Shown one piece after another: positions 15,301 through 62,119 of a stretch of 64,000 nt of DNA. A program made the position numbers and the translations under genes. This DNA is from Grifola frondosa (taxonomy: Eukaryota > Basidiomycota > Agaricomycetes > Polyporales > Grifolaceae). The notes under the pieces are model-generated. The model made no database searches. It was not told the DNA's origin and worked only from the letters and a program-made list of their open reading frames with translations. The stretch spans positions 1,054,001 through 1,118,000 of the forward strand of contig LUGG01000002.1 in assembly GCA_001683735.1 (NCBI GenBank), read 5' to 3'. Every line of letters starts with the position of its first letter. Within the stretch, counting starts at the first letter, position 1.

Positions 15301-15780
15301 ATCACAAGTTCCGATATTGACCTGAAACCGAAGTGGAACTGCAAACGAGCATTACATTCAGGAATTCTGGAGAATTAAACGATATGCCTACCTGATAGCC
15401 ATCTATCTCTCCTCGAGTTGCATATTCTGTTCCAGGCATACTTCCAGGGACAATGTCGAGCACTTTCTACATTCAATCCCACCTTAGCTAATACACGCCG
15501 CATCTATCAAAGATACTTACCGAGCCAAAGACCAAACTGTAGAGAGGATTCGCGAGGATGTTTGAAGGAAGTCGTCCAAGCGGCTTGCCGTTGATCAGCA
15601 ATTCTCCTCCTAGCAGATCATAATGTACGATCTGCGACCTTTGTACGACACTCTCCGCCGTCTGCGAAGTGAGCCACCGCTCGTTCGGGTGTTGAAGCTG
15701 CCTCCAGCCCGTTCCAGGACGATACGCAGGCCAAATGGCAGATATCGCACGATCGAAACCCGTTGGATCGCTAAAGATAT
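9374..15780 (-). pseudogene. Giant DUF6606/DUF3638/DUF3645 protein, copy 1, C-terminal two-thirds
   Basis: Family of very large fungal/oomycete proteins of unknown function, sometimes labelled ubiquitinyl hydrolase. This block continues the gene interrupted by the transposon at 15781-33200. Successive minus-strand coding pieces are 15780-15530, ~15480-15390, 15147-13160, ~13120-12710, 12646-12405, 12407-10242 and 10510-9374. The DUF3638 core is clear near 12570: LQLNMGEGKSSVIVPVIAA, a P-loop-like GEGKSS, followed by RTRLVRVVVLKSLANSMFQM and LVDRLGGLNNRRIF. Downstream MPFSRVTNP and SYYYGGLQEHQIDLCFALLY fit DUF3645. Lesions relative to copy 2: one base lost near 12405, just before MPFSR. A second frame break near 10390 is shared with copy 2, so it is either ancestral or an unrecognised intron. 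A candidate 26-nt intron near 13200 is doubtful. Product would be non-functional because of the 17 kb insertion. Confidence 0.85.
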
Positions 15781-15790
15781 GCTCCAGAAG
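15781..15790. repeat. Target-site duplication, left copy
   Basis: GCTCCAGAAG directly before the left inverted repeat; the right flank has GCTCCCAGAAG at 33190-33200. Removing the element and one copy restores a DUF3638 reading stretch with the same length as copy 2 (around 43886-43920), supporting these boundaries. The duplication is imperfect by one base. Confidence 0.75.
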
Positions 15791-15912
15791 CACACCTTTC
15801 AGTCATATGTTCCTGTTGCTAACAGTCAGCCGGTCAAAAATATGACCTGTTATTACAGGCCAGCCGGTCCCGGCCGGTCATTCGGTGTTTCCTGTATTTA
15901 CAGTCCGGCCGG
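15791..15912. repeat. KDZ element left terminal inverted repeat
   Basis: Pairs with 33072-33189 in reverse complement with roughly eight differences over the inner ~100 bases. Made of stacked short palindromes: CCTGTTGCTAACAG (15812), GGTCAAAAATATGACC (15832), CCTGTTATTACAGG (15846), CCTGTATTTACAG (15891), then CCGGCCGG. These are plausible transposase-binding sites. Confidence 0.92.
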
Positions 15913-16299
15913 CATTTATATCAGACCATCAATCACAGTCCGGCCGCGTAACACTCCAGATATCTTGAATAGTACCGAAATGCCGGTGGGGTGGGACAAC
16001 TTTACATATCATATGCCGGGCCGGCAAACATGCTTTGCCTACAAGCAGTCACCTCAACAAAAGCCAAATCACGTGGTTTCTGCTATATTCATCAAAACTG
16101 AACCGGCCTGAAGGTAATTATGACAAATGTGAATATATTGCCAGATGACGGAGCGCAGCATGACCGGAGAATCCTCACTACAACTAATCATGTAACATTC
16201 AATGCCAGTAGACCGATACCAAACGTGCATGGTATTCGAACCAAATTGCCGAAAACTAGTACATCATTTGCCGAAAACATTACACCGAAGACAGATATA

Positions 16300-17036
16300 C
16301 TAATTCGCGTTGTATTTGCTCAATATCGTCTCCTCGGCACTTCGAATCTTAACTTCCAACCCGGCAATCTGGCTCTGTTGCCGCTCATAATGATTCCTGA
16401 TCTCCTCTTCCAACTCGAACACCCGTTCGCTTAATTCCTCCCAGTCGGCACGCATAATACGAGTGGTGTCACGCTGGAGAAATGTCAGAACACCGAGAGT
16501 ATCATCGAATGGCAATACGTACGTAGCGAACTTTGGGATCCTTCCACCAAATTGGCGGAGACGGGTGTGGCTTTTCGAGCCAGGTCCACCAGGCATGGCG
16601 TTTGGCGATGGATTCAAATGCCGCAGGAATTGCCGGGGGTTACCGGTGGGCATAGACAAGGCGCCCATACCGACGAAGTACCGTCCACGCTCCCAGTGGA
16701 GGGAGTGGTGAATGAGAACGGAGACAAGCCGGGGAATGAATGGTTGGTATCCGGTGAGAAACATTTTGCCGATGAGGTCCTTGATATGAACCTTTCCGGC
16801 ACTTGAGCGCAAATGCCGGATGACCTAACAATGTTGTAACTCACCAGTTCATTCTCCAGACCTTGGCACCACCGCAGATAGTTGTCCTCATCGGCATCCG
16901 GGGGAAATGCCTTGATGGCGTGCCAAATACGCCATTCGCGGATCTGCATTTCGGTGGCGGCACAACGAAAATAAAGGTCTTTCGACTGTGTTTGAGCGGC
17001 GATGTCTTCGGCATTTTCTTGGTGTTCAGATGACAT
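16300..17036 (-). CDS. KDZ-element cargo protein A, unknown function
   Basis: Family not recognised. Start at 17036 (MSSEHQENAEDIAAQTQSKD), stop at 16300. Two open pieces belong together: 17036-16845 (…EDNYLRWCQGLENEL) and a second from ~16824 (VIRHLRSSAGKVHIKDLIGK, PFIPRLVSVLIHHSLHWERG, then a C-terminal coiled-coil-like ADWEELSERVFELEEEIRNH). Joining them in frame removes exactly 20 nt bounded by GTGAGT and TTAG. That is far below normal fungal intron size, so a longer intron plus a one-base indel is an alternative. The first gene inside the left terminal repeat, transcribed toward the end of the element. No metal-binding motif, signal peptide or membrane helix seen. About 230 residues. Confidence 0.6.
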
Positions 17037-17358
17037 GATAAGCAGTGGGATGTGATAGAATGTGATGATGGGTATCAGGAAATGTGCAGCTTAAAAGTGT
17101 TTCTGCAGAAGGTTTAAACTCAGCAGAACAATCAACCGCCCAAAAGGGGAGAACAAAGTAACCAGAACAATGCCGGTGAAGACGTTTGCCGGCATTCAAA
17201 GGCATCTGATGGCGGGCCACTCCGGCGATCTGGTCAACCGGCGATTAAGCATTCACCCTCACTCATGACCAAAATAAATAGCATACATCCAATCAAATCG
17301 CGATACATTGTACAAGTAATTCAAGACAAGATACAAGGGGAAGACCGAGGCCGGCATT

Positions 17359-20139
17359 TCACTTCTCTGCCTGATTATCAGAGTCCTTTGCCGGGGCACC
17401 ACCCTGCCCTTCGCCGGTCATCTCACCACCTGCCTTCTGCCCAGCAACAGCCGCACCTGAAGGTCCACCTCCTGCCGGCGTTCCACTATTCGCCATGCCG
17501 GTGTTCATCGGCTGGATCAATCCAGGCAATGCCGTGAGTGAGGCTGCAGCTGACGGCTGCAGGGCAATCAACTGCTGGCGCATGGACTCCATGAGAGTCT
17601 CCACGCCGGCATTTCGCTGGGCCGATGTCTGCTGCTGCCGCTCGGTCAACACCCTCTCCAGTTGCAGGAACTCCAGGGTCTTGTTTTGGCCGGCATGGAC
17701 ATCGGCGAGCTGCTGTTTGATTTCACCCACATCGCCACGCATCTCGGCGACCTGGGTGGGCAAATGAGAAAGACCGGCGACCTGGGTGGCGATGGTGTCC
17801 ACTTTCGCCGACATGGCGAATACCTGCTGGAATTGTTGTTCCAAAGCGGCGACCACATCAGCGGTGATGAGGGTGCGTATCTGGCGGTCAGTGTCCGCTG
17901 AGGCCAGGACGAGCGCGCGCTCGGCATTTGGCATGGTGCTCTCGCCCTCGGTCGTCATCTCACCGTCACTGCCTTCATCCGGCGTTTCTTCGTCATCTTG
18001 GGCCAGAATGTTGAAAAGTCTGACTGGGAGGTTAGGAGTGGTTTTGCCGGTCTGTGGGTTCATTTTGATGATTGGCGGCGGCGAAGGGAGAGTGGTAGAG
18101 GGTTTGCCGGCAGTGACCTTCGACGAGCCGGCATCTGCAATGAGCGGCACTAAAACGTAAGCTACAAAATATGGTAAAGATAACAAACAGCGAGAATATG
18201 CTCACCGGCGTTGACGCGAGACACGGGCTTTGCGGTCTTGCGTGACTTTGCCGGTGCCGGCGTTTTGGGTGGTGCCGGAGTCTTCGCTGCCCCCGTGGTC
18301 TTCTGGTCCTTGAGCTTGCGGATACCCTTCCGGTAATACTCAACATAGGTCTCGTCGAGTTCTGGGAGTGATTCGCCCGCGCGCCTCACGTTCAAGTCGT
18401 GCTTCGTCTTGCTCAAGGTCTTGAACCTCTTTGGCGGTGAGCCGGCGAGCCTTGTCAGCCTTTGTCGCAAGGCTGCAGCTGATCTTCAAACCACGGCAAT
18501 ATCCGCAAGAGGTCGCCCGGGTGGTTTGAATGTAGCACGGTACCTTCTCGGTGTTGCATGCCGTGCATTCGAACTCCTGTGTAATTGTTAGTATCGCAAT
18601 TGCCGGCGGCAAACAAAATTACGCTTACCGACACCTTGAACAGCACTGGTTTGCCGTCATCCTCCTCTTCCTCACCCTCTTCATCCGGCACTATGGCAGG
18701 TGACTTAGGCGTCGTCTTTTTGCAGCTGGTCTTCTTGCGCGGACGCCGGACTGAAAGGCATTAGCAAAATTGATGAAAGCAATAATGAAATACATACTCT
18801 TGACCTCAGTTGCCGGCTCATCGCCGGGCGCATCCTCATCTTCTTCCACCTCCTCGGTCTCTTCCATCTCGACATCTTCTTCGCGGCCTTTCCCTTTGCC
18901 GGCGGGCGGCTTCGAGGCGGTCATTTTGCCGGCGGTCGTTTTGCGTGGACGCCGGACTGGAAACATTATTAGCAAGGCAGTGGGGTTAAATTTGAAACAC
19001 CTACTCTTGACATCAGTTGCCGGCTCATTGCCAGCTGCCTCATCCTCCTCGTCTGGCTCTTCTGCATTCGCCATCTCCACATCTTCCTCACGGACTTTGC
19101 CTTTGCCGGCTGGCGGCCTTGAGATGCCCACGCCGGGGCTGGCGACCATCATGCGCGGCTTCTTGCTGTGCCCCCCGCCCGGCATTTGCTCAGGACCTGA
19201 ACGCTTGAGATTCACCGGTGTTGACTTTGCCGCACCTTCAGTCACTAGCAAGATCATCAGTATTATGTATGCGGCAAAACAAATTACGTACCGGTGCGTG
19301 CAATATTGCCACCACCAGTTTTCTTGAAGTTCAACTTAAGCAATGCCGCTGCAGTGGCATTGCTCTGTGCGATTGCCGTTTCTGCAGCAACATCTACGAC
19401 TGGCGTGTCGGCAGTTTGGACGGTTGTAGCTGATGGCAAGTTAGTGAGTACCGGCAAATATATCTGAACATACTTGTGATCGGTGTTTTGTCAGTCGCCT
19501 TTGCTGCTGGAATGGCAACCTCTGCATGTGCCGTGGGTGGGACAGCGACAGGTGGCTCCTTCCCAGTTGGCTTGACTGCCGGCGAGTCAACGTTCATCGG
19601 CACTTCGACTGTCGGCGCCTTAGATTGGACCGCCGGCAATGTGGCCTTTGGTGCCACAGGTGGTTCGATGAGCGCCGACGTGCTGGCATCGATGGTTTCT
19701 GTGGATGTGCCTGTAATCATGGTTAATTTTTAGTAATAGCTGATAAAGAAATGAACGTACCGTCAGGCACTTCATGCCGCAATAGCGGCGAATCCTGTAT
19801 TGCCGGATCATCCGCTGAGAGGACCTCGATGTTCACCTCTTTGTCACTTGCCTGGGCAACACTGGCATGTGTCACCGCGCTCAGTAAAAGACCGGGGTAA
19901 AGCCATGTGGCATTCTCTTTCTTGCGCAGGTTGTGTGCCTGCAAGTGCAGCTCATACTGCAAGAAATGAGCGAAACGCCGGACGAATTTAATGAGACATA
20001 CCAGATCCTGCCACCACTGCATAGCAAATGCCACGTAGCCACTTGCCTTCACGTCGGGACGAATTTGGTAACCCTTCAAAAGCCGGGCGGCTTTTTTGTC
20101 AAGCTCGGCGAATTCAGCTCTTTGAGTTCTGGTCGACAT
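17359..20139 (-). CDS. KDZ-element cargo protein B: 802-residue basic/acidic protein with cysteine cluster
   Basis: Nine minus-strand exons join in phase to exactly 803 codons: 20139-19761, 19710-19474, 19429-19292, 19244-19005, 18956-18798, 18750-18629, 18576-18390, 18361-18206, 18149-17359. N-terminal ~125 residues are globular (WWQDLVCLIKFVRRFAHFLQ). Next comes Ala/Pro/Thr-rich sequence. Then repeated modules follow, RPPAGKGKVREEDVEMANAE and KPPAGKGKGREEDVEMEETE, each ending EPATxVK at an exon end. A cysteine cluster encoded by exon 7 (CTACNTEKVPC … CGYCRGLKISC) suggests zinc binding. The last exon has a coiled-coil-like segment (ALEQQFQQVFAMSAKVDTIA) and a Gly/Ala-rich tail. Lys/Arg-rich stretches suggest a nuclear, DNA- or chromatin-associated role; that is inference. 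Intron 18389-18362 is only 28 nt, so that junction is tentative. No named family recognised. Confidence 0.72.
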
Positions 20140-20471
20140 GGTGAAAATAGTAATGAGAATGATAACAAGAGTGTTGACTTGGTGTTTAAAGGAGGCAGAG
20201 AGCAGAGGCGCGGGGAACCACGATAACGCGGGTTATATGAAGGAATCAGAACAGTAGTCACATGACAGAATTCACCGTTTGCCGACATCAATCTAGATAT
20301 GCCGATGACATAATGTTGTACCCGCTAAACAGATAAAATCTCTCACCTCCGTTGACCAAAATCTTCCTTCCCCCATCAAAACAACATACCAATTTAGGTA
20401 CGCCGGCATACGATATCCCACACTCACGCTCATATATCAATTTAGCGCCTCAATACATTTATCTACCCACC

Positions 20472-21763
20472 ATGTCCGCACAATCTACGCTCGGTACGTC
20501 GGTCTATATGTATGTGCCATCGAGATTTAACCATTGCTAATAGGTCTCACCGGCATATCTGAAGGTTTGCCGGATACATTTCTCATTTTTGATTGCTAAT
20601 AAAGTTTTGCCAGTTGCCATGGACGTCGATCAGACAATCTCTGGCAATAAAGGTGAAGTTCCCCCGGCAACTGTAGCAGGGCAATCCGGCAATGCGGCAT
20701 CAACCAAGATCCAAGTGCCGATGAACTGGAACCTGGATGCCGCGATGGAGGACGAATCCTCAGTCCCAGCTCTTGCTGGCACGACGGTCCCGGTCATGCG
20801 TTGGGACATGGCCCCCTTCCTACCCCAGCTCCACCCACTCAGACAAATGCCAGTAACCCGGTCATGCAGTGGCCTCGTCTCTCCCCGCCGGCAAACACTA
20901 ACCCTTTGCCGACGATCCCGCGCCCCGTGACGATGAACTGGCAACTCGATTCGCCGCCAGCTCGGGGAGCCTCACTGCCGGCACTTGGTCAGACCATGGC
21001 AACAACCATACCACCACGGGTCATCCTTCCCACCCTCAATTGGGGAACACCGCCCACCCAATCCTCTGTTTTGCCGGCAGTCCGCCCTCCGCCATCTATC
21101 TCTTCACCTCATGTCTCGCCTCTTGTGACATTGCCGTCAGCAATGGTATGGTCTTCTGGCAGTCCGCCGCACCAGCAGCTCGCCATTGAAGACACTGATA
21201 CGCCAACTCTCAGTGCCGCTGAGAGGTACCGGCAATACATGGAGACCTTCGAGCTGGACCTCCAGTCCAATCGCCGTCAACCGGCAATACCTCCCATTGC
21301 CGGCGAGACAGCGGCAGCACCCCGGCAAGACATGGGATTGGTATTTGCCAGGAAGTGGATGTTGGAGGAGCCGGATAAAGAGATTGAGGGATGGCTGCCG
21401 GAGACGGTCCCTCGGTGGTTTGCACGCAAGGACCCAGCTGATGTCGAGGAAGATGACGAGGTGCTGTTGTCACTTCGTGAGGAGGCATTGCAGTGGATGC
21501 GCCGGGATGCCATGCGGACCTTTGGATGGCAAGAGGAACTTCACCGCCTTCGGTTTTTAATTCGCACCCGCGCCGGCGGTCTTACGATGGATGCCGTCGA
21601 TAATGAAGTGGCTGCCAAGCCGAAAACCGCGAACGACCTCATCAGTTGGGAGACAATTGCCAAAGAGCGGCGAAGGTATGAGCGGTCTTTAAAGAGATGG
21701 AATTTACCCAGTCAGCCGTATCCTGTACCGGAGACAGGCAATGCCAGTTCATCGGGATCTTAG
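20472..21763 (+). CDS. KDZ-element cargo protein C: Pro-rich protein with recurring V-x-M-x-W motif
   Basis: Divergent from cargo B. Small 5' exons (ATG at 20472, MSAQSTLG; then LTGISE) splice to the main frame at ~20604 (VLPVAMDVDQTISGNK). The N-terminal half is Pro/Ser/Thr-rich with a degenerate repeat centred on a Trp: VPMNWNLD, VPVMRWDM, NPVMQWPR, VTMNWQLD, LPTLNWGT, LPSAMVWS, usually followed by a LPA or LPT group ~15-20 residues later. The C-terminal half is charged and probably folded: RYRQYMETFELDLQSNRRQP, RKWMLEEPDKEIEGWLPETV, ALQWMRRDAMRTFGWQEELH, WETIAKERRRYERSLKRWNL. The frame slips by one base near 20815 in a run of five C; one more C would fuse both parts. Function unknown. Confidence 0.65.
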
Positions 21764-22183
21764 GTACTTTGCATCTGTAGTCCATTGTTCTTTTGTATGC
21801 CTCTTCATATGCACCATGTCTCAAATGCCATTTCGCCGTCTGCGGCATTCACAATAGTGCCGGTATTGTGATTATCATTAACCTGAACATATGTTAAATG
21901 GGAATGTCAAATGCCATATTGCCGGAGAACAATTCGCCCTAATACCGGTCTACCGGCAAATGAAGTGCCGTAGATTGTCGAGAATATGCATATGCAGACA
22001 AGTTTGAAAACATGAATATTTCAATTCACCTCAATGCCGGTGGTCTAAGTGTTCTGTATGCTTAGTACATGAATGCCACAGAATGTCATATTGCCGGCAA
22101 ACAATTCACCATACCATCCGGCAGTCTGGCAAATAAATTGCCGCATTATCCAAGACGAATGCAGATGTACAGTTTAAAACCAT
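21764..22183. other. Convergent 3' region between cargo C and D
   Basis: Downstream of cargo C and of minus-strand cargo D. Dense in TGCCGG/CCGGCA words and in the phrase ATGCCGG; no coding signal. Confidence 0.4.
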
Positions 22184-24863
22184 CTATCTTCTCCCGGCCT
22201 TTCCCCGCTTCCTGCTGGTCTTTTCATTCGCCTTTGCCACCGGTTTCTTGTCCCTCCCAGTAACTGCACTCCCCGGCACATCCCCATTTCGCCGGCGTTT
22301 GGCTACAGGTTGTTCTTTGGCAGGCGGTTCCTTTCTTTTCTTGCCGTTCTGTGGCACGGCCACGATCACCTGTGAAGCATGACTTCGCAGCTGCCGTTTG
22401 GTGCTCTCTTCATTAGCACGGGTCCTTGCTCGGGTCAATGGCCTCTCCTTTGTGACTGCGACTGGCAAATGCACTGTCGCCGGTGAATCACAGCGTCTTG
22501 AAAACCGCCTGGTACCAGTGGAGATGGCCCGTATGACCTGGACCTTTGCCGGTGAAATGGCATCTGCTGCGACCTGTGATTGCTCCACAGCTGGACCATG
22601 CCGTGGTTCAGATGGACCAACTGCCGGTGGTTCATCCTGCAAATGGTGATCCTGTTCCACCGAGATTTTCACCAGTTTGCCACACAACTCGGTGATGTGT
22701 GAGATGTGGTCGAAAGAATGAACGGTGCTCGTGACATATGCCGGCACACTGTCAGCCATCAGGTCATCCGGATCGGCAAATGAGAATTGTGACCTCGCTA
22801 AATCCCGGAGAATAAGCCCAAATGTCAAAGCACCTCGGATGATGTCCTCGCCGTCCATCAACTTCAATGCCGAAACGTGATCGGCAATCTCTGCACTCCA
22901 GAAGTCCAGAATTTGTCGAAGCCCATTCGAATGCCGGTGGAAATCTTCCGGCAGCCAGGCAGACTGGTAATTCCAGTTGGCCCACATATATCCAGGTGCA
23001 TCCCTGAGCTTCAAATCCAGTGTTCCCTTTTTAGAATTAATTAGTGCGTACACGCCATCATGATAAAAAACACTTGCCGGTTTTTCGAGTATAACCCTGA
23101 TCAACGTCTGGTAAAGGCCTTCTTCTGATAATGATGCGAGGAAGATTTGCCGGCGATTGATGCTATTACCAGCCCACGATGGTGCCATGTTCTTCGCCAC
23201 ATCCAGATCCCTTGCCGGAATGTCACCGATGTCTTTCGACTGTAATGCCAGGTGGTCACCCTCGGCATTACTATCTACCCCTCTCGGTGTCTCACGTTCG
23301 ACCTCATTGCCGGCCTCTGATTCAGAATTGGAAGAGATCACCATACGATTCTTGCCCTTCCTGGTGATTGCCTTGGACTTTTTAGACATTCGTGGCCTTG
23401 CCTTCTGTGCTTGGGATTTCTCATCATCCCCATCGGCATCGCTGTCCACCGGCATTTGATATGTGGCAATTCGCCGTTCGAAGTTCATGATGCCGTGCGT
23501 AAACCGAAAGACATATTCCAGGTCAGGATTCATTTGCCGGTCTTGCCAATATTTCAGCAAGCCTTCTGCATCCTCTTTCTTAATCTTGGAGGGGTCAGAA
23601 AAGACCATTGCATCTGGGAGTGATCCTGCTGCAATATACCGGTGAAATCCATCCTTGTTCAGCCGGTCCCATGGCACCCTTCCGGCAGATGTTCCACATG
23701 CCAGGTCTGGGATGTTCATTAGCTATGAAGTGAATCAGGCATTTAAGACTTACTCCAGTGGATGGCAAAAAATGTCCGGATGAAGTTTTGCAGCTCAGTT
23801 AAAGTGAGGTTGACCGACTGGGGAATGATTGGAATGCCGCTCAGATCCAGCTGAAAAATGTAGGCTGGTAGTTTTGCCTTCAATATCTTCGGCCGGAGAT
23901 CTGGGTCATCTTCGGCACTTTCATCTACATCTACATCTGTCGGTCATACGACATAAGCAATTTCACCCCCGAAGAAAGCTATTTCTTACTGAAACATTTT
24001 CGGGTAAACAATACCCAGGCCGCATATGTCTTGTCAGCCCATTTGGGAAAGGTGGTGGTGAATTTCTGTCCCAATTGACTGTATTTGTCGTTGAAGTCAT
24101 GCCTGTTCTGATATCAGTATTTATATTCTTTAGCAATATATCGATACTTGCCGGATGACCACCATATCGCCGGCAGAATCTTGATGACCGGTCAGCATGA
24201 AGATATTTGCGTTGGTTTGCATCTTCACTATCCTGGCAAATTTCGCGCACATATCTGACAGTTGTTCATCTGCGATACTGGGTGGATATTAGCTTCGCCG
24301 GCATTTCAAACACTGGATGCTCACATTTGTTGAACTCTCGCCGGCGGTCCATTGGTGTTCCACTTTTCGGCAGTTGCCCGGTATTCCTCTTCACGGCCTT
24401 TCCCAACTTTTCTCCACAGCTCACTAGCTGCCGGTTGATATGCCTCAATGAACTGGTGATCACTACCTGGTTCAGCCCCGCTGATCTCCTTGGCTCTCTC
24501 GATGATCTCCCGTGAATGTTCTGCTCGCCATACTCGATATGCCGTCCACTTTCGAACATATTGTCGCTCATTCGCCTTTCGGTTTCGATGTTTCTTCGAC
24601 TTTTCCTTCTTCGAAAACCACCGCCTAATTTCCTGTTTCGGCATTTCGTCAATCACCGGCCATCTCAACCAAGATCATCATTAACTTACCTGCAGTAGTT
24701 TTTGTCGGAATTCTTCATCATTTTCTTCACGACTTTCACTGAATTCAGCTGCCAGCTTCTTTCGAAGCGCACTTCGCTCCGATTTCAAACCATTGGAATG
24801 CTCCTCTAAAGCATTTTTCATGGCAAGAAGCTCAGGCTGTGAGAATACAATCTGGGAGGACAT
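22184..24863 (-). CDS. KDZ-element cargo protein D: large charged nuclear-type protein
   Basis: Minus-strand, six exons. Exon 1 24863-24690 (SSQIVFSQPELLAMKNALEE, coiled-coil-like). Exon 2 from 24632 carries WFSKKEKSKKHRNRKANERQ, then REEEYRATAEKWNTNGPP. Later exons give MQTNANIFMLTGHQDSAGDM, TTFPKWADKTYAAWVLFTRK and GIPIIPQSVNLTLTELQNFI. The long last exon ends at 22184 and begins LACGTSAGRVPWDRLNKDGF with a basic, Ser/Lys-rich tail (ARTRANEESTKRQLRSHASQ, multiple KRRR-like clusters). One junction near 24152 uses a GC-AG intron (CG/GCAAGT). The EEYR…A..WN..GPP and W…Y pattern recalls proteins that travel with KDZ elements in mushrooms, from memory only. Basic clusters suggest nuclear localisation. 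No enzymatic motif identified. Confidence 0.68.
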
Positions 24864-25425
24864 TTTGCAGGTGATGGATGAGGGGAAAGTTGATTGCTTG
24901 CAGCAGTCCTACATCTCGTGTGTTTTCTAGTCGATCATGATTGATCGGACATTGAATCTCCGATATCCAATGCTTACATCCACCAATCAACAGGCAACTT
25001 TCCGGATTCTCAATCCAGATGCTCAAACTGATCAAAGTGGGTGTACATGGTGCCACAACATACATCTTCATTCTTAAAACATATCTCACAAACATTTCAC
25101 CTCTATTAAAATCACTTGGATGTCCATCTCACAATTACAGTATATTTGAAGCACAGATGTTTTTCAGACATGTCATATTTATGAAACACCTAAAACCATC
25201 CATGCTCCAAGTAATGCCTGTGTATCCCACACACATCATGTCCTGACTATGAGACATTTGCCATTTGTTCAGCCACAATTTTCGTATGTATGGGTATACT
25301 TCTGTTTGTGCCAGCATTATTTGGTGCTGCCATCAAAATCTGATGTATCTTCTTGAACCTGTTCCACTCACTGCTCTGGTCAACATTTTAATCTGTCCTC
25401 CTTTTCAAACTCTGTCTTGACAGAA
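24864..25425. promoter_or_regulatory. Divergent promoter region of cargo D and the TET/JBP gene
   Basis: Separates two divergent start codons. Its composition differs sharply from the rest of the element: AT-rich, almost no CpG and virtually no TGCCGG/CCGGCA words, with many CA/TG dinucleotides (for example 25020-25330). It may be a specialised CpG-free promoter or DNA that lost CpG by deamination. Short open frames here are not convincing. Confidence 0.5.
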
Positions 25426-26775
25426 ATGGATTCAAAAAACAATGTGAGTGTATTTCTTCTCATGTAGCCTATCATTTAATGTCACCACCTGCTCATGTCA
25501 TGGCCAGACCTTGCCTGTGCAACGTTATGACTTGGAATATACTGAGGCATTATCTGCATATTTACTGGACTTCTTCAAGTACACATTACACCTGGAAACA
25601 AGATTATCTAAAGCCATCACCATGTCAAGACCATTGCCAGATATCAGATTGAGCCTGGACATGGTATGTGAGTGTATGAATGTGGCAAATGTGTTGGTAA
25701 AAGCATACCAAAATCCCAGTGAGTCCGGTGTTTTGAATTTGCCGGGATAAAGGTTGACCGGCATTTGGCAAGTGCGGGTGGAGTGGGATGCCGATCAGTA
25801 TGCTGACCGGTTTGGTACAAAACCGACTGGTCGTAATGCTAAATTAGAGGAAAGCATCAAGACTCGATTTCCACCGCTGCACCATACCGGCAACATTGAC
25901 CGGCCGGCAATTATCGTTGACAAACACCTGAGAATATTGTGCTGGATTCTTCCCGGCATTTTGTCTAAAAGTCGGCAGGTGAGAACGAAAAACAGAATCT
26001 TTGGCGATTACTAATTGCCAGCAGGAATCCATGGAAAATGCCATTCGAAGGATGGAAAGCGTGTTTCAGATCCACAGCCAGAAGGGAAAGTCATGGCGGG
26101 AAAATGGCGAATTCTTCAAAATGCCAGCTGAATGCCGGTGGTTTCCACCTGGAATTGTGACTGTGTCGGCAGGATGGTTTCAAATGGGGCACAAGGTATG
26201 TGGTTACAACTGCCGAAATAATTTGTATTAACTCCAATAAGACTCCGGCATATACGCCGGAGACATCCGCCTCGTTGAAGAATTGCCCAGCATCCTGGGA
26301 ATGGCTAAAACACACGGGAGAGTCTGATGCACTGCTCAGTGGAATATTCCGAGTTATGCAACCTGAGCTATATGCCGCCGGCATTCAATCGCTCCGGCAT
26401 TTATCACGAAACCCAGACCTCCACCCATATATCGGCATGTGGACTTCGGCATTTACAGCCATCCAAATGATATCCAATCGTGAAACACCATTACACCGGG
26501 ACAACTCTGGAAGATCGCCATGGATGGATCTACTTGCAACCCTAGGGCGGTATGAGAAGGGAGAACTGGAACTGTCGACCTTCGGCATATCAGTGAGTTA
26601 CGATGCCGGGACGGTGGTTGGACTTTGTGGAAAGGTGGTCCGGCATGGTGCTCGAGCGGTTGATGGGGAGAGGCTATGTTATGCATGTTTTATGTCATCA
26701 GAGGTTCTGGCTCATGCAGGGTTGGAGTATCCTCACTGGATGTCGATGAAGCATTACGTAGATTTTACTGTGTAA
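25426..26775 (+). CDS. TET/JBP-family 2-oxoglutarate/Fe(II) dioxygenase
   Basis: Predicted base-modifying dioxygenase (family members oxidise 5-methylcytosine or thymine). Five exons (25426-25443, 25508-25718, 25773-25978, 26025-26195, 26242-26775) splice in phase to 379 residues with no lesion. The double-stranded beta-helix signature is complete: SNRETPLHRDNSGRSPWMDL supplies the H-x-D iron ligands. Next, GELELSTFGISVSYDAGTVV, then GKVVRHGARAVDGERLCYAC supplies the distal His and, eight residues on, the 2-oxoglutarate-binding Arg. The N-terminal third (YDLEYTEALSAYLLDFFKYT) is a helical extension I cannot assign. It ends 85 bp before the transposase ATG in the same orientation. Substrate not deducible; 5-methylcytosine is most likely by family. 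Intactness contrasts with the lesioned transposase. Confidence 0.9.
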
Positions 26776-26860
26776 ATCACATCATGCATGTAACACGTGC
26801 GGAGGAAAGAAAAACATATAAATTGAAGGTGTATCTGTATGGCCTTCCCCTGATTCGAAG

Positions 26861-29800
26861 ATGTCCAAGAAACATGTGATACCTCGGCGCAACGTAATTT
26901 CCAAGGATGGCATTCGACATGCAGAATCAGACATCTCCGGCAAAAGGGCAAAAGTGAAACACACCGGCAATCCGGTGGGTGCCGGACCGTCGTCTCATGG
27001 CCCGCGGCGAATGGTGCAACCACCGAGTGATAATGCCGGGATGCCCGCATTGGTCGACGTTGTGCAAGTGAATGAACCATATCTGCAGCGAAAAACCAAG
27101 GTGAGAAACACCGATGATACCCTGGCAATTGAAGCATTCACCGAGAGTATCAGAATCAAAATGACTTCATGCGAGAATGGATACCGCGAAAATTGGAGTT
27201 TCTTCACCGTATTGTCGAAACCGAATACCCATCGCAGGGAATGATATGTTCGACATGTGAAGCCCGAGAGGGAACATGGAGGTGTTTGGAATGCTTCGGT
27301 CATCCGGTAACATGTTTGGAGTGTACCCGAGACCTTCATGCTCGATTGCCATTCCACCGGGTGGAGTCATGGACCGGTGACTATTTTCGACCAGCATGGC
27401 TTCGATCCGCTGGAGTGGAACTACACTTGGGGCATGCAGGTCGACATTGTCCGGTCGAGGCAAAATGGGATGCCAGCATGGAAGGTGAACCTGATGAAGA
27501 GGAAATTCTGGTAGAGGAGCCAATGCCAAATATCTCACCGACGATCAATGCCACATCCAGGACATTGGTCGTGGTGGACATCAGTGGTGTTCACCATTTG
27601 GAGGTTCACTGGTGTGGATGTCCAAATGCCGCACTGTCGGATATGCAACTGCTCGACATGGGATTGTATCCGGCAAGTGCCAAACACCCTCGGACGGCAT
27701 TCACATTCAGGGTGCTGGACGATTTTCTGCTGGAGAACAAAGAATGCAAGACCGCAGCTTTGAATTATTATAATAAACTCCGGAGAGTGACCTCACCGGC
27801 ATTTCCTCATACCATCCCGGTGAGTAGTGTTTACGTAGGCAGTGTTTTGATTTAATCGCTTGGGATAGGACCGATATCGTGAGCTGCTGAGGGTAAGCCG
27901 GCAATGGAGAGAATTGAAAAGTGCCAAATGGAGTGGGGAAGCTCATGAGCCGACAGGGGTGAAAGGACCGGGAAGCCATGGTCTTTTCTGTGTGGCATGT
28001 CCTCAGCCTGGTGTCAATCTGCCGCCTGACTGGCAAAATGATGAGACCGACCGGTAAGATGGCATTCGATTATTGATATCCGGTGATTGACTGATTTCTT
28101 CAGTTGGAAATATACTCGGAGCTTCGTAATGGATGGCAATTTCTCTGCCGAGCATATGAAAATGAGAAAGCCGGACGATGATGTGAAGTTACGGGATGGC
28201 GAAGGATTCATGGTCCAGGACCGTGATTATAAAAATCATCTGAAAGTGGCAAAGGAATCGAAAGAGGTAAGTACAATCACCGACTGGGCGGACATGTTCA
28301 CCGATATTGAGAATGCCGATGACAGAGGTCTACATGCAATGACCATGCAGCGGTCAACCAAGCAAATGCTAATCGACATAATCTGGAAGCCACCGGCATT
28401 GGAGCCGCAGCATGTGCTCGGCATGGGTGTTTTGTACCTCATTCGGTGGTGGATTTCCAAAAAGGTGAACGTGAGTCTCGCCAGTATATGTGAATGCCGG
28501 ATGATATTGACCGGATACAGGCAAAAGAACATGGATTATGTGTTCAACGGCGCTTTGGCCACGCTATGTGGCATAACTCTTCTTTTGCTGTTATATGACA
28601 TCATGTGTCAATACGGCAAACGGATGAGAGCGCGATTTGCCGGGAACCCGTATCTCACGATGCCGGCCGGTCTTACGATTCTGCAGGGAATCGGTCTATT
28701 CCACGTACATGGACATCAAGATCAATGTTTTGCCAGATATTCACCAAACTTCATTGAGGGTGCCGGCCAAATCGATGGGGAAATCATCGAGACATTATGG
28801 GCTCCACTGAATCATATTTCTGGAAGCACTCGGGGATGTCCACGGCCCACAGAAAAGAGGTCATCGATGATCACATGAACGATTCTAATTGGAAGAAACT
28901 GACAAGGATGAGTAAGCTGAAACGATGGCAATCACTCAACCACCGGTGGATTGATAAATGTTTTCAGTCCCCTCTCTAGTTCGAAAGTACCGAAAGGCCA
29001 TCGCCGGCGAACAACTTCACCGAGAGGTTTTGGAGGAAGCCACATTGAATGCCGATGAGGTTGACATTGAAGAATGGACTGCACAATATACCAGGGCAAT
29101 GACTGAGCGGCATGCGAATGTGGAAGTCATGGATGTTTTTGAGGTAAAAAAACGTGAAGGTGAGCCGGTATATGTTGTTCATGGCGGATTCTGCAATTTG
29201 ATATTTTCAAGCTCCAACCCGTAGTGAAATTCAGCTCCAACTGGCAAAAGCCGAAGATACAGAGAGGCTTCCCCGGGGGACCGTGGCATGGCTATCTTCC
29301 GGCATGAGAATTCAGGAGACTCAGTAGGTGTTCCCAGCAAACTACATGGGTATTTGCTAATGCAGGATAGACTATCACTGACTGCCGCAATCCGGCATAT
29401 CGGCAAGAACCCAACACCGGCAGAGAAGCTACAATTGTTAGATCGCCGCCAGAGACTTCAGACAAGGATTGACAATTTTCAGAAACATGCTGCAGCACAC
29501 ATGGTCGGTGCTGGAGACACCGAAGGTCATTTGGCATTCGATGATGAGGATGACGAACTGCCGAGTCAGAATTCCCCCTGGGTTGATGTTCTGGAGGACG
29601 GTGTAATGGCAGATGAAATTGTCAACCTTGGAGAAGATCTGCCACCTGAAAAGCTCATACTGCATATGCCGTCAACACTGGGATCAAATTCATGCCGGCG
29701 ACTGCACCTGGAAAAAATCGCAGAGCAAGAGGTGGAACTTCGAAAGGGACAAATGAATGACGCCCTTCACCGAATTCGACTGGCACTTGGGTACAAGTCA

Positions 29801-30464
29801 TTTTTATACCGGACGCGTGTCCGTGAAGCAAACAGTCAACGGTCTAAACTTCGGTCTTTCGATGAGGTCAATATGGTGGAAAATGAGGTCAGGAATCAAT
29901 CCCAAATTTACCATCATTCCCGGCGTTGTCTCCAAGCTCTGTATTCCAGCGATCCGGCAACTCATGATGCAAACTGGTTGACAGAGAAAAGAAGTCTGTT
30001 TGACCGGTACAAAGTTTTATCACCAGAGGACTTGAAGGTCAGCACTGCTCTAGTGGAGGCACACACCAGGGGATTGCGGAATAAACCTTTGGCTTGGTTT
30101 TGGACCATGGACCTGGCTGGTGATAGTGATGATGTAGCTTGGATGAGGGAATGTGCGTATATTTTGCCATATCACCGGTGGATCAGATCTGATGGCAAAT
30201 GATATTGGCCGGCAAATAGTTCACCGGGTGAATTGGCTCAGAGCAAAAGCCCGGGCAGATCGGTGGAGGGAAGAGGTGGTGATTGTCAGGTCTGAAATGG
30301 ATTGGACTACTCGATATTTCCAGCAAGCTGAATCTCAGTGGAAAGGGCGAGCGGTAAAGATGACTGATAAAGGCCACCGGTGTTATGCAATCCGGCAAGC
30401 TGGAATGTGGAAGGCATTTGCCGATTGTGCAGTGGTTACCTTTAGAGAGGTCCTTTCTCAATAG
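26861..30464 (+). CDS. KDZ transposase with N-terminal CxC2 cysteine cluster
   Basis: Multi-exon transposase. Exons include 26861-27100, 27154-27819, 27869-28053, 28104-28266, 28326-~28481, ~28519-28911, 28968-29159, 29212-~29322, ~29365-30152 and 30220-30464. The CxC2 cluster is CSTCEAREGTWRCLECFGHP, then CLECTRDLHARLPFH. KDZ catalytic-domain hallmarks in order: FVMDGNFSAEHMKMR; CNDHAAVNQANANRHNLEAT; ACARHGCFVPHSVVDFQKGE; LLYDIMCQYGKRM; GLFHVHGHQDQCFARYSPNF; GAGQIDGEIIETLWAPLNHI; STRG/MSTAHRKEVIDDHM; and a C-terminal VNWLRAKARADRWREEVVIV region. Acidic candidates for catalysis are the Asp of MDGNF, the Asp of YDIMCQ and the Glu residues around DGEIIE. Two one-base losses (near 28830 in a G run, and near 29323 at a splice donor) break the frame. 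Confidence 0.93.
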
Positions 30465-31240
30465 CGTGTACAATTTTAGCATTCTGGCATATTGCACTGT
30501 TTGTCCTCCGGCAATACTCTATGTGCCGGGTTGCCGCTGGCATTTAACACATGCCGGTCATTAAGATAATTGCTCACAGCGTGGCATATTTTATTCTATG
30601 TATGGCGTCATCCTTAGTCACCCATAGTCACCTGACATTTTGATGAATTTCCATTCCTCAGAATCATGTGAAGTGCATAATTCCTGTGCTTCTGAAGGTC
30701 TAAGTGAGGCTTTTGTGCTCATGACCGGTTTCTGAATATAATTGCCGGATCTTCGGTGCTTCGAACTTCATGAGACATATGGCCCATGATTTATCTGCAT
30801 GGGTCCGAGTGGATGAAGATAACATTTTTATCACACTGAGCGCTTCTTATCGCATTTTTCCCAGGTTCTGCCATGTTGGCATTCAGTCAAAGAAGCTTCT
30901 TTTTCCAAAGATAACAATCATCAAATTCGGTGTCATATATTTTGCCATGGGTCAGTCGAATATGTCAAACCCCGAAAACCACGGCGATTTCAATTCTGAG
31001 ATAATGATCAAACATTCAATATCTTAGTCAATCTCACTGGCATAATTGGTAATGCATGTCTAAATTGGTCATCATATCTTCAGATCAGCTGGAGGCATTG
31101 CCACGCGTGCCTGTTTCCATGGACCCCAGACACCTAGATCAACTATTTGATCATGGATGGCAAAAGATCTTTGATGTAAATAATATTATTTCTGTTATAT
31201 AGGGCTCTCCTGAGATCGATCCTGTCATCATTCCACTATC
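30465..31240. other. Element-internal non-coding region
   Basis: Between the transposase stop and cargo F. The first part has TGCCGG words; 30600-31200 is AT-rich with fewer. Presumably 3' region plus promoter of cargo F. Confidence 0.4.
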
Positions 31241-31891
31241 ATGAACGTCTCGCCTAACCTCCATCGTGACCCCACTCCTTTCCCGGCAAATGACCGGTTT
31301 TTTTTCAACTTCATTGACCAGAAAGTCTTCGAACTTATCCGCAGGGGGTGAGCATGGCGGTCCTTCGGTGATTCCATTTGCCGCTAATTATTTACCAGGA
31401 ATGGGCCATATGCCGATTGGTTCCTCAATGTCGATGAAGATCGCCGGGCGGCGGCAGATATTTTAGAAGGGCAGGTGTGTGAGGGGTGAGGGAGATCATG
31501 AGGCGATCAACTGTGATCGCGGCAATATGTGAAGCATCCCCATGCAGGAACCCCGGATTGCCGAAGAAGACGTTCCCACGATCGATTGCTACGTCGCATT
31601 CGCAACCGCTGCGGCAATGTCTCGGCGAGTTTGGGTGAGTGCCATTAATGTGTGCCGGCAAACATGTTGACATTGAAATTTAGCTTATTCCAGTCGGCAG
31701 CCCCGTCCCTTCCCAGCCCGACCTCCCCCCCAAACCCCACCGGCGCCGAGAGCGCTCCTCTTTGGGAATGGGGGCTTCCATACACCCGCACGCCGAGCCT
31801 CTATACCGAAGTCGGAGGACCTCAGGCGCAAGGCGATCCTTCAACACCACGCACTCAAACGCCGGTCCGCCGGAGCGTTGCCAGCGTCTAG
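31241..31891 (+). CDS. KDZ-element cargo protein F, small, unknown function
   Basis: Four exons (31241-31347, 31399-31474, 31548-31634, 31694-31891) join in phase to 155 residues without lesion. The first three exons encode a compact-looking domain: PFPANDRFFFNFIDQKVFEL, NGPYADWFLNVDEDRRAAAD, EPRIAEEDVPTIDCYVAFAT. The last exon is a Pro/Ser/Thr-rich tail. Family not recognised. It lies between the transposase and the right end, same strand. Splice consensus (GTGAGC, GTGTGT, GTGAGT) and frame consistency are the support. Confidence 0.6.
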
Positions 31892-32700
31892 GGACCGACT
31901 CGCCGAGCATCATCCTGGCGCATTCCTCTGGCTCCTCAGATGTTTTCCTTAATCCTGAGGATGCTGCCAATGCACCAATCCCCCGCCTCTTTCAACGCCA
32001 TGCCGAAGAACCGGACTTTTAGCCGTTGGACATTGTTTCATTGTTTTGATGGGGAGGAAAGATGAATCGCTGTAGCCGGCCGGTGTAATTGTATCTCGCA
32101 TGTATCGTCGTCACTTGAAATAAATTGTATTCTGGTAAATTTGTCAAAACCCATAAGAGAACGCCGAGCCGGCATTTCAACTCTGCGCTCCAGGGTAATA
32201 ATCACCGGTCATCCGGCATTCACTCGGTCATCTGGCACCATATTGAAATGCTGCTAATTCACAAGTCTCCAGGGGATGTAACTCTGATTTTGATAGCTAT
32301 CTTATCTGAATTGAATCCTGCTTACTTGCATTTTATCCCCGGTGTGGATTGTACCTATAAAGCAATGATGATAATGTGTGGTCGCCCGGCAGTCTGTGTT
32401 TGCCTCGGCAAATATTTCAAATATCTGTCATACATTAGTCAATGGCAAATTCTGCTGGGCTTTTGATTCCCCAAGTTAAATCCCCGGCAATCTTTGTAAA
32501 CATTAAACACCGAGGGTTACTGCCGGTCAATCGGTCAATCGGCATACCGGTCTTATCATGTATTCCCATGCGATGTACAGTTGTGAGACTGCCGATAGAC
32601 CATGGCATGATTATTGCCGACTGCCCCATGAGTTGAGTTATATTGAATGCCGGTGGAATACCGGTTATCAAGTTCATGTCCTGAAGTGGGTGTGATATAT

Positions 32701-33074
32701 GGCCGGACTGTGGTTGCAGCATGTGAAAAAGGCAACAATATGCCGACTTATATCCGGCCGGCCTGTGGTTACAGCATGTAGAATAGGCGGCAATACCCCT
32801 GTTGCTCTCCGGCCGGACTGTGATTATGGCTGTAAACTGCATGAAATATTCCGGCATTAATATGGCAATTGCTCGGCAAATCGACCAAATTACCAGCATA
32901 GTCAGCCGGCCGGACTGTAACCATAGCTGTTTCAGGGTTGCTGGCCGGACTGTGATTATGGCCATAAACGGCAGAAAATATTTCGGCATTAATCCGGCAA
33001 TTGTGCGGCAAATCGACCAAATCACCAGCATAGTCAGCCGGCCGGACTGCAATTACAGCTATTTCAGAACTGCC
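32701..33074. repeat. Right subterminal repeat array of the KDZ element
   Basis: Two nested arrays. A ~55 bp unit beginning GGCCGGNCTGTGGTT occurs at ~32702 and ~32757. A 132 bp unit beginning GGCCGGACTGT starts at 32811 and 32943, with a third start at 33075 that runs into the terminal repeat. The module GGCCGGACTG followed by a CTGT…CAG-like palindrome half recurs at least six times. Open frames here just read the repeats. Confidence 0.88.
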
Positions 33075-33189
33075 GGCCGGACTGTAAATACAGGAAATAC
33101 CGGAACACCGGCCGGGACCGGCTGGCCTGTGATAACAGGTCATATTTTTGACCGGCTGGCTGTTAGTAACAGGTGAAGTGACTGAATGG
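33072..33189. repeat. KDZ element right terminal inverted repeat
   Basis: Reverse-complement match to 15791-15912. Outer ends read CACCTTTCAGTCA (left) and CCATTCAGTCA (right, reverse complement), so the outermost bases are less conserved than the inner palindromic part. Confidence 0.92.
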
Positions 33190-33200
33190 GCTCCCAGAAG
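33190..33200. repeat. Target-site duplication, right copy
   Basis: GCTCCCAGAAG; see the left copy at 15781-15790 (one base shorter). The host frame resumes immediately after it. Confidence 0.7.
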
Positions 33201-36200
33201 ATGTGGTTCGAAGCTACGCGCAGCCCGTCGATCTCGATCCAGAAGCGCTTTCAGATGCGAAGGCAGCGATGTATCATTCGGAGGTCTGTTATCGTGAAGC
33301 ACGATGGCGCATTCCACGATGATGGCGATGTCCTCCGCCGAACAAATCATCTCCGAGATGTGTCTTCGATCCACGTCGAACGTACTTCGACACACTGCTG
33401 CCATCTCGCGTACTCGATTCTGGAACTCCTTCACCTCATTGTCGTCGCTCTTCTGTACCTTCTTCGACAATTCTTGCAACCAACCGAGTGCGACTCGACG
33501 AGCTTCCTGCAGTAGACCGAATGCCCTCCTCACAACCTCCCCGTCCGAGGTTGATGCCAGCAGACGACAGACGAGAGCGATCACCGTTCTGACTGTCATC
33601 ACTTCCTGCCAGTTCGCCTCCACATCAAGCAGCAGATCCTGCAGTTCGCTCAGCAGCGCGGAACCGAACTTTGCATTAGCGAGCTCCACATGCCACTCTG
33701 GATCGCCATCCTGAGACAATGGCCCGACTTGCCATGCGGCCTGCATCAGTAACGCATGCACCTCTTCACGTTGAAATGTGAGAGTGTTCGCGCGTAGCTC
33801 CCTGAGGATATTAAGCCATTGCAACAAGGGACCGCTTCGAAGAACGCCGAACGACATGAATTCGTGGAGCGTAAGATCCATCGAACAGTCGATCTGGTTG
33901 GCGATGATGTCGTTAGATGTGTGGGATGTGCCTGCAATGGCGTATTGGAGGCACTGGTAAGGTCCTGGGGAAGGGTGAAGGTGCAATGAGATGCAAGGTC
34001 ACATTTCGTGAATGCCTTGGTAGCCCAGGAGGAGTTGGAACAATCGAATAACCTGAATTGCAGAGCATTGTTTACGAGAACTTGACCTTCTGTGGATGGG
34101 ATCGACACGTTTTTGTAGTGCGATTTCAGAAATGATTTAGGCTCCGAGGCAAGACCGATACGGGCCCTCCTAGGATGTACGAAGTACGGTATGAGAGCGG
34201 GATATTCTTCCAATAACGTGGAGGGCTTCGCTGAATTTTTCGCTAATCGCAGTAGATCTGATGTGCAGAAATCGTGGAGGAAAGTGTACGTTGCCGTTCT
34301 CCAGACGTTATATGCAGTAGGACAATCCAATTCCACGGCAACAACTTGAGCCATGAGGGTGTTCTGCGGCAACGGCCACTCATAAACATTGATCTTCAAG
34401 TTGTCCCTCTCTCGCTCGCGTTTACATTTGCTGCATTTCTTACGCTTGTGCGTGTTCTGTCCATGATCGTTCGGTTTGTAAGAGTGACTCATACTGTCCG
34501 CCTCCGCTGTGAGTTGCTGATGTTTCTGATTTTTCTCTCCGAGCTCCACTCGTTTATTCTCCTTGGCCCGCGCGGCTTGCTCCTCGACGCGTATCTCAAG
34601 CTGTTGATGCTTCTCCGATGTTGCGAAGAATCGCACCGTGAAGGTGTCATGGTCCACCTCATCGGAGAAAACTGATCGTTTGGCCTGACGATGGCGTTCA
34701 CGCAGATATTGAATGGCACGTTGCAGACGAACGAGCTGGTTGGTTTGGGGAGGAGTAATCGTTCGAAGAGATGTGGGGGAATTTCCGGAGAATAGTCATG
34801 GAGGAGGGGACAACCCCGTAAGGCCAACTGATCCATCGCGATCCAGAGCTCCAGAAGCGTCAGATACATGATAGACATGTTCTCTTGATTGCCCTCGTAC
34901 ACCTCTCGTTTGCCCCAGTACTGTTGCATGCAGTAGGCCATAGCGAGACACGCCGAATCAACGTCGACGACTGCACTGAGCCAATCAAAGAGTGTTCCCT
35001 CCACGCATGCCTCGAAATCGGCGAGCGCTAAATGAGGATCGGGGTTGCACGTACTGGAGACATTGCTCGTGTCAGCTGTTATGAATTGACTGAATCGTGT
35101 GAAACGAATGGGGTGCCGCGATTCGAAGGAGGATGACCATGCGGGAGGAAGTGACTGTGTCAAGATTCGTGACAAGTGGTCGCGGCTATTGGTGAGGGAC
35201 AGATGAGTGTCATCAGCGATGTTAAGTTCATCAAGATTCCAAGATGAGGCCCGAGTGTGCGTCTCCTGAATGGTTGTCCATCGCTTCGTCAGCCGAACTT
35301 CCACCTTTTCCGCCACTTCCAATACCCAGCGGGCCAGGAAATCCGGCGCAGATGTGCCTAGCTTGAAAAGTCGACGGCTGATCTTCACCCTCATACAAAA
35401 CAATAGGTCGCTAGAAAAATCCCGATCCAATGCCTGCAGAAGGATCTTGGTCATCAAGAAGATCATGAATGACTTGTAGTCGTCATCGTTGCCACTTTGC
35501 CGATGAAAATACGTCTGCAACACGACCCGCATGACTAGCCATAGCGATGATCTCCGCCATGGGAGTTTTACATCGTCCCATAAAACATCGTCAGCGACGC
35601 GTTTGTGAATACGCTCGATCTCCGCTTCCTTGCCCATACCCCGCAAGATCCCAGTGAGTAATTTGGTGATGTAGCGAGGATGGGTAGAATCTCGTTCCTC
35701 GACTACCTTAGATCCAGCTTTCCTTGTTGTCGGAGCAGTATCAAGGATGTCCTCATCCATTCGAGCCAAGAAGTTCGTGAAAGATTCCCGGAACGATGTG
35801 CCACGAATTATGTCGCGGGAAATTGTGATGGCAGGTCCAGGATACGAACACGATAGCTTGCCCTTCGCCTCTATTACAGCAGCGGCTGTTGGGGAGACCT
35901 CAAATGACTCGAATATTGTTTCGCGGGATGAATTTCTGACAACGATAGCCGCATTCTGAGCTCGAATTAAATAAACCACGATACCTGCCATTGCAATGAA
36001 TTTCCTGACCCTTTGTAGGAAATATGCTCTCACCATCATCTTGCATATTAGCTAGCTGCTGCTCTACAAGCTCCACAGATAACGACTGATATTCCATACA
36101 GTCTTTGAGATCAAGAAGCATCTTCACCATCGGATCCAATCGACGAGGAAGACGAGAATGATAATCCTGCGCCGCACAGGAGACTAAGGACACAAGGGCA

Positions 36201-46500: not shown

Positions 46501-47022
46501 CTCTCGAAACGAAGAGTCGTTGATAACGTCGTGGGAGATTGCTATAGCGGGTCCAGGGTAGGAACACAGAAGTTTTCCCTTTGTCTCCATTACGGCGGCA
46601 GACGTCGGAGAGACTTCAAAAGATTCGAAGACAGTTGCATGTGAAAGGTTTCTGATGATGATTGCCGCATTCTGAGCTCGAATGTAGTAAGCGACAACAC
46701 CTGATATTCTCATGTTAATTCACGTAGCAGAGAAAAAGAAAACCATCTCACCTCCATTATCCATGTTCGCAATTTGCCGCTCTATGAGTTCGGCGCGCAG
46801 AGATTGAATTTCTGCGGAATTTCGGAGATCAAGAAGCAATTTCACCATAGGGACCCATCGCTGGGATCCATCGGCAGAGAGGTGAGATTGAAAGTCAATT
46901 GCAGACTGTAAAACAAACAACGCTAGAGTTTCCTCGCAGGTGACCGCGTAATCACTACCCTGTGGTAACTTCGGGGGCGCGAAAACATGATCGATGATAT
47001 AGCGCAAGTGCTGAGCATCCAT
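37573..47022 (-). pseudogene. Giant DUF6606/DUF3638/DUF3645 protein, copy 2
   Basis: Full-length tandem paralogue without the transposon. Exon 1 starts at 47022 (MDAQHLRYIIDHVFAPPKLP, DUF6606). The intron after NMDNGG is followed by a 1000-codon exon (46690-43650) and further exons to 37573. The P-loop-like NMGEGKSS lies near 40690. Lesions against copy 1: an 11-nt deletion at 42040/42041 (copy 1 has 13911-13921); +1 near 40757 and -1 near 40622, which put the P-loop out of frame but restore it afterwards; CAG to TAG at 40330-40332; +1 near 40278; CGA to TGA at 39540-39542; an earlier stop at the C-terminus (DFDNA). Some indels may be assembly errors, but the stops and 11-nt deletion look genuine. 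Function of the family is unknown. Confidence 0.85.
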
Positions 47023-62105: not shown

Positions 62106-62119
62106 GAATTAAAGTGACA

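Follow-up and report, generated by a model that had tools for sequence, protein, structure and literature searches.

A complete TET-encoding KDZ transposon of Grifola frondosa with an accessory gene order common to diverged relatives and a CpG-poor D-TET spacer

The element and its genes

We analysed a 64,000-nucleotide stretch of the Grifola frondosa genome (assembly GCA_001683735.1, contig LUGG01000002.1; C2:1054001-1118000), here called the window, which holds a Kyakuja-like KDZ transposon that encodes a TET/JBP dioxygenase beside its transposase. A first-pass annotation, made from the letters alone, had read a complete KDZ-TET transposon here, and this is borne out by its ends, the flanking duplications, the KDZ, CxC2 and Tet_JBP domains and a near-identical copy on contig C3; the element is a real, complete and recently moved transposon. 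The pairing of KDZ with TET is already known, and the novelty lies in the order of the accessory gene set and in the CpG-poor spacer beside TET. Specifically, the order KDZ-TET-D-C-B-A is common to four diverged lineages, with two others deviating from it. The features of the element, in positions of the window, are as follows.

15784..15790: left target site duplication, CCAGAAG, 7 bp
15791..33193, no strand: complete TET-positive KDZ element, Kyakuja-like, 17,403 bp, CACACC...GGGCTC
15791..15917, plus strand: left terminal region, with the inverted-repeat part at 15812-15917 (106 bp)
16300..17036, minus strand: gene A, accessory protein of about 210-230 amino acids (model 227), frame interrupted as assembled
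17359..20139, minus strand: gene B, 754 amino acids, 10 exons
20472..21763, plus strand: gene C, 373 amino acids, C-terminal 130 conserved
22184..24821, minus strand: gene D, 794 amino acids, 6 exons, N-terminal region conserved, C-terminus basic
24822..25425: divergent D/TET spacer, presumed shared promoter, 604 bp, 6 CpG against 24 expected
25426..26775, plus strand: TET/JBP dioxygenase gene, CcTet-like, metal-binding HxD kept
26861..30464, plus strand: KDZ transposase gene with CxC2 cysteine cluster, catalytic-domain frame interrupted as assembled
31241..32022, plus strand: possible gene F, about 200 amino acids, weak
32811..33085: two copies of a subterminal direct repeat, 143 bp each and overlapping, 86% alike
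33068..33193, minus strand: right terminal region, with the inverted-repeat partner at 33068-33173
33194..33200: right target site duplication, CCAGAAG, 7 bp

Both ends can be read, the left at 15791 as first placed and the right at 33193, 4 bp beyond the 33189 originally given, and the predicted target duplication is present as the same seven bases on both flanks. Self-comparison of the window aligns 15812-15917 with 33068-33173 as an inverted repeat (92.5% over 106 bp), and the element ends bear repeated motifs. The sibling copy on C3 spans 17,520 bp, matches the window copy at 99.3% identity across 17.3 kb, lies between different flanks with its own 7-bp duplication (CCATCCT) and has 131 extra bases at the subterminal direct repeat. 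Across the genome that was searched, one 39.1-Mb assembly of 64 contigs, the terminal repeat has 38 matching places, including the two ends of the window element itself; siblings therefore exist, as the first-pass annotation had expected.

Gene models came from a small gene finder for which the window served as training sequence. The CxC2-KDZ transposase and the intact TET/JBP gene that had been read from the letters are both upheld by Pfam domains (Tet_JBP, E 2.3e-20; CxC2, PF18803, E 2.9e-27; KDZ, PF18758, E 5.3e-29). The TET protein aligns to CcTet (7vpn) with an E value of 5.8e-38, has its HxD site as HRD, and carries Gly and Asp at the CcTET positions named by Kojima 2025 (PMC12730594); the last 30 or so residues of the TET query used for the domain and CcTet comparisons were wrong, beyond the matched part. 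The fusion of TET with KDZ seen among the gene models is an artefact, for the TET frame runs open to a stop at 26775 and a KDZ start is available at 26861. Judged by eye, the A protein has a Trp-rich middle and a coiled-coil-like end, and the B protein is of low complexity and charged, with a coiled-coil-like C-terminus. Consistent spliced frames had been claimed for B, D and F, and the claim stands for B and D; F fares worse, having a gene-finder score of only 1.4 and partial conservation. No tyrosine recombinase captain, the mark of a Starship, turned up in general domain scans, none of which was aimed at it.

In the window copy, as assembled, the A frame and the KDZ catalytic-domain frame are broken where other copies read on, and in the C3 copy frames are broken at different places. 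One-base indels number 45 against 73 substitutions between the two siblings, compared with 8 against 646 in a host duplicate. Because the indel share of the siblings far exceeds that of the host duplicate, many of these indels are probably assembly noise in near-identical repeats, with real decay as the alternative.

Relatives of the element and linkage of its genes

Three further full elements have the same two end types as the window element: e35 (C2:3499546-3516325, 16,780 bp, perfect 7-bp duplication CTTTGGT), e13 (C13:944727-961892, 17,166 bp, GAACTTT, also perfect) and e8 (C8:1387144-1413626, 26,483 bp, likewise perfect, CATATTG). Relative to their genes, e35 and e13 carry the two end types the other way round. 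By eye, e8 contains a gag-like gene and for that reason probably includes nested material. Perfect 7-bp duplications thus flank all five full elements of which both ends were read (window, C3, e35, e13 and e8), and an assembly chimera was dropped as an explanation, since each of the five insertions has a separate duplication. As e35 and e13 are 99.4% alike and the window and C3 copies 99.3% alike, these five insertions belong to three lineages. No matching duplication flanks either of two short terminal-repeat pairs (C13:890.5-892.8 kb and C24:731.7-737.4 kb), and the elements e355, e38 and e313 and a copy on C12 were not read out to both ends.

Six-frame searches of the whole genome returned at least 97 matching pieces for D, 128 for KDZ, 22 for TET, 22 for C, 71 for A (with the frame-interrupted window model as query) and 19 for B, all of these counts being lower bounds. 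Clustering the pieces at a gap of 4.5 kb gave 23 D, 76 KDZ, 22 TET, 18 C and 27 A loci. Most cargo loci have a KDZ or TET neighbour no more than 20 kb away (21 of the 23 for D, 16 of the 18 for C and 20 of the 27 for A), and with KDZ alone as the neighbour the counts are 19, 15 and 20; TET itself is near KDZ at 20 of its 22 loci. About 7.35% of the genome is that near a listed KDZ locus, although binomial values calculated against this background overstate the case, because copies of one element are not independent. Cargo homologues scattered through the host without a KDZ link, the pattern that would speak against the first-pass proposal, are therefore for the most part not what this genome shows. 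D occurs at 17 of the 19 KDZ loci with TET versus one of the 57 without it.

A KDZ or TET neighbour is missing at two D, two C and seven A loci, and two of these A loci (on C27 and C64) lie less than 2 kb from a contig start, beside a terminal repeat. At G000:C16:708775-711857, two A-like sequences have no KDZ or TET within 20 kb and possibly belong to another type of element that uses A. Of the 22 TET loci, 16 are on contigs whose length is known, and five of these 16 are less than 60 kb from a contig end; loci near contig ends include C2:3.50-3.56 Mb (contig end 3,563,620), C8:1.79 Mb, C24:0.75 Mb and C38, which raises the possibility of subtelomeric clustering.

TET and D are found together in all seven lineages that were fetched (window, C12, e35, e8, e355, e38 and e313), every one of which had been picked for TET or terminal-repeat matches; KDZ identity among them is 46-76%. 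The order KDZ-TET-D-C-B-A, with the same orientations, is present in window/C3, e35/e13, e8 and e355. Direct searches for B match only the window and C3 copies, and the B slot in e35, e355 and e8 holds genes with a related C-terminus (leave-one-out profiles 32.7-80.8 bits; shuffles at most 10.5 bits, with none of 883-992 scored shuffles as good). Relatives of F occur in the window, C3 and C12 copies, with an N-terminal piece at four more places, and no A or C was found in the C12 slice.

Between lineages, nonsynonymous differences per site (pN) are 0.16-0.38 against synonymous differences per site (pS) of 0.66-0.92, which is near saturation, for D, C, A and TET, and C is the fastest-changing of the four. 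These values come from locally alignable codons, which favours conserved stretches, and the test of A covers e8 versus e13 over 79 codons. In the comparison of the window with C12, pN/pS is 0.37 (TET/KDZ), 0.47 (D N-terminus) and 0.55 (F). Very close pairs have too few changes for estimates of selection: between e35 and e13, two gene models have more nonsynonymous than synonymous changes per site, on just 7 and 9 changes. From the comparisons between lineages, D, C, A and TET look to be under purifying selection.

CpG composition of the D-TET spacer and its interpretation

Near-identical copies differ mainly at CpG. Transitions at CpG/TpG make up 36 of 48 between the window and C3 copies (34 of 48 under a stricter CpG definition) and 66 of 85 between e35 and e13. 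In the host duplicate, an imperfect control in that it is more diverged and mostly coding, the figure is 157 of 402 (Fisher p 2.2e-6 for the first pair and 6.6e-11 for the second). The ratio of observed to expected CpG (CpG o/e) is 1.03 in the host sequence of the window, 0.86 in the window element and 0.33 in the C12 slice with its flanks; outside the spacer it is 1.05 in e35, 1.01 in e13 and 0.73 in e8. Cytosine DNA methyltransferase domains occur at four places in the genome. The CpG-biased differences suggest that the elements have been methylated; the same pattern does not show TET rescuing them.

In the four complete elements that were ranked, the spacer between D and TET is the stretch poorest in CpG. 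With slightly wider limits (604-673 bp), its CpG o/e is 0.23 in the window, 0.32 in e35, 0.32 in e13 and 0.23 in e8, and no equal-length stretch elsewhere in the same element is as low (0 of 617, 599, 615 and 979, respectively). The minimum among 1134 stretches of 640 bp from the window's host sequence is 0.64, 35 AT-rich host stretches average 1.11, and the other non-coding spacers of the window copy range from 0.67 to 0.97. Apart from short motifs, chiefly one near CAGCCACA-TTTCGTGTAT, no alignment between the spacers of different lineages is possible, and this CpG poverty is therefore not mere shared sequence. The sharp contrast rests on three lineages.

We consider it fairly probable that the element is a self-contained, six-gene transposition and anti-silencing package with a demethylase promoter that is hard to methylate, a function that we infer from the arrangement and composition described above. 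In such a package, the KDZ transposase with its CxC2 cluster would move the element and make the 7-bp duplications; the duplications are observed, and naming this transposase as their maker follows general knowledge of KDZ elements. The TET/JBP dioxygenase, by analogy with its relative CcTet, would oxidise 5-methylcytosine on or near the element, and its gene and D diverge from a common spacer, the putative promoter of both. D, C, B and A would be accessory proteins that selection on the transposon has retained; judged by linkage and amino-acid make-up, they would most likely associate with chromatin or DNA as partners of either the transposase or the oxidase. The composition of the presumed D-TET promoter suggests that, kept nearly free of CpG, it could allow expression of the demethylase from an otherwise methylated element, which the enzyme might then reopen. 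How a silenced element expresses its own eraser is the question to which the accessory set and the CpG-poor spacer would give a concrete answer, with four protein families (A-D) apparently kept by selection beside a DNA demethylase. Put forward tentatively, as a possible rather than a probable elaboration, there would be a two-level answer to host CpG methylation, in which an oxidase complex (TET with D, and perhaps A-C) would remove the mark and is joined to a promoter of its own that can hardly be methylated, keeping the host from silencing the counter-measure before it acts. The first-pass annotation had likewise suggested a package that helps the element to escape methylation; the shared order and orientation in four lineages and the signs of purifying selection support the package, while DNA binding by the cargo and help in escape stay at the level of inference.

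Several observations weigh against the package with a protected promoter. Trees of D, TET and KDZ over the seven lineages agree solely on joining the window with C12, and we draw no conclusion on co-inheritance for that reason. In e38, A-like sequence directly follows the transposase (L033, C38:107501-117500), compared with its place at the opposite element end in the window; in e313, the A match is on the KDZ side, in a fetched slice that may stop short of the other end; and no C was found on C38, on C6 within 20 kb of its D locus, or on C18. Pfam has no credible domain in A-D, profile searches of PDB with the D N-terminus, A and C gave nothing credible, and the single-sequence fold of D residues 45-146 (mean predicted local distance difference test, pLDDT, 72) matched no solved fold; that of the last 134 residues of C (mean pLDDT 43) was unusable. 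As for the spacer, CpG o/e is not clearly below that of the rest of the slice in e38 (0.58 versus 0.66), e313 (0.40 versus 0.51) or e321 (0.53 versus 0.54), and e355 has a 3.7-kb spacer of normal CpG content. Nor is low CpG peculiar to the spacer, as the flanks of e35 and e8 (L041, L043) have values of 0.30-0.43. Separately from the element, these flank values point to strong CpG loss in some regions of the genome.

The main rival for the spacer, which we think somewhat unlikely, is that it is a mutational scar: the host would methylate the promoter hardest, deamination would have removed its CpGs, and TET would be no rescuer. The preponderance of CpG changes between copies fits a scar, as do other copies that are CpG-poor throughout (slices with flanks: C12 0.33, e313 0.51) and the CpG-poor flanks just mentioned, but a scar sits less easily with e35 and e13, where the remainder of the element is at 1.05 and 1.01 and the spacer at 0.32, or with the higher values of the other non-coding spacers in the window copy. 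For the genes, a possibility that we take seriously without favouring it is that they are structural helpers of transposition, acting in complex assembly or end binding and unrelated to methylation. Helpers of this kind would suit the coiled-coil-like ends of B and A, the repeated motifs in the element ends, to which such a protein could bind, and the presence of A near KDZ without TET at two loci (C6:1827458 and C12:1348417); against them, D tracks TET rather than KDZ and faces TET across a single spacer. That the cargo consists of captured host genes carried passively is very improbable, for although some D, C and A loci have no KDZ or TET neighbour, most of the diverged homologues (30-50% identity) also neighbour KDZ or TET, and the codons are constrained.

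Known systems, the HMG question and the host locus

TET-positive Kyakuja transposons of Agaricomycetes have already been published (Kojima 2025, PMC12730594), and in the main text of that paper they resemble the present element in their KDZ transposase, CcTet-like AG-type TET/JBP protein, 7-bp duplications and 5'-CA start. Coprinopsis cinerea laboratory strains, by the same account, have many TET genes next to Kyakuja elements. The two Laccaria Kyakuja families described there have CA..TG ends and no inverted repeat, unlike the CACACC..GGGCTC ends and 106-bp inverted repeat (92.5%) found here. Since the end type differs, we label the element Kyakuja-like and not Kyakuja. In the same main text, extra proteins are reported only outside this superfamily, namely a third protein for PHISTA and an alpha-kinase for IS3EU. 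Terminal inverted repeat (TIR) motifs are mentioned for KDZ/Plavaka elements in a Marasmius paper (PMC8290104). The giant KDZ elements of Ectocarpus (PMC12477816, with a Chlamydomonas element cited there) are similarly large, and many Ectocarpus giant-transposon families carry additional transcribed genes, but the hosts are algae and the KDZ passages make no mention of TET. In Cryptococcus, KDZ1-3 (PMC12810828) are likewise KDZ elements, of 9-11 kb with inverted repeats of 139-241 bp; they differ in having CxC1 instead of CxC2 and 4-8 bp duplications, and no TET gene is mentioned in the passages describing them. Within the literature covered, to which subscription papers and supplements did not belong, neither an A-B-C-D set nor a CpG-poor TET promoter is described.

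The first-pass annotation could not assign the cargo proteins, and this remains so for A-D, with the novelty of D less certain and F weaker as a gene. Iyer et al. 2014 (PNAS) reportedly describe KDZ-TET linkage and CxC clusters like those seen here, and the abstract is reported to name additional proteins, including one with a divergent HMG domain; A, B, C and the CpG-poor spacer are not known to be described there. D may be that divergent HMG KDZ protein. The N-terminal region of D has a putative HMG-like register. A search with PF00505 (HMG-box) does not list D, and a profile of eight HMG boxes from the same genome scores D no better than shuffles. A multi-copy D profile scored 19.6 against the HMG profile, higher than any of 200 column shuffles (best 18.8), which is weakly suggestive at best. 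The term HMG is absent from the main text of Kojima 2025 (PMC12730594). Searches of a protein database whose fungal share is uncertain found nothing for D among 7996 scored candidates, or for A, queried as the frame-interrupted window model, among 113. A dynein chain match to A (E 0.0012) was not relied on.

The element lies within a host gene, which it splits in two, and the empty-site paralogue that had been proposed for it is present within the window.

13148..15783, minus strand: downstream half of the split host gene, extent from paralogue alignment
33201..35991, minus strand: upstream half of the split host gene, DUF6606, from alignment and domain search
41984..46713, minus strand: uninterrupted paralogue, DUF6606, empty site at 43911-43916

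The paralogous locus at 37574-44802 aligns at about 90% to 9441-15790 plus 33205-34090, with the insert absent and the break at 43911-43916. It belongs to a duplicated block, also about 90% alike (9374-15099 and 33274-35991 versus 37573-46713), that contains large host genes with DUF6606 and DUF3638/DUF3645, the latter in an open frame adjoining the split gene. Near the right end of the window, a self-match at 62101-62498 reveals tandemly repeated units of about 119 bp.

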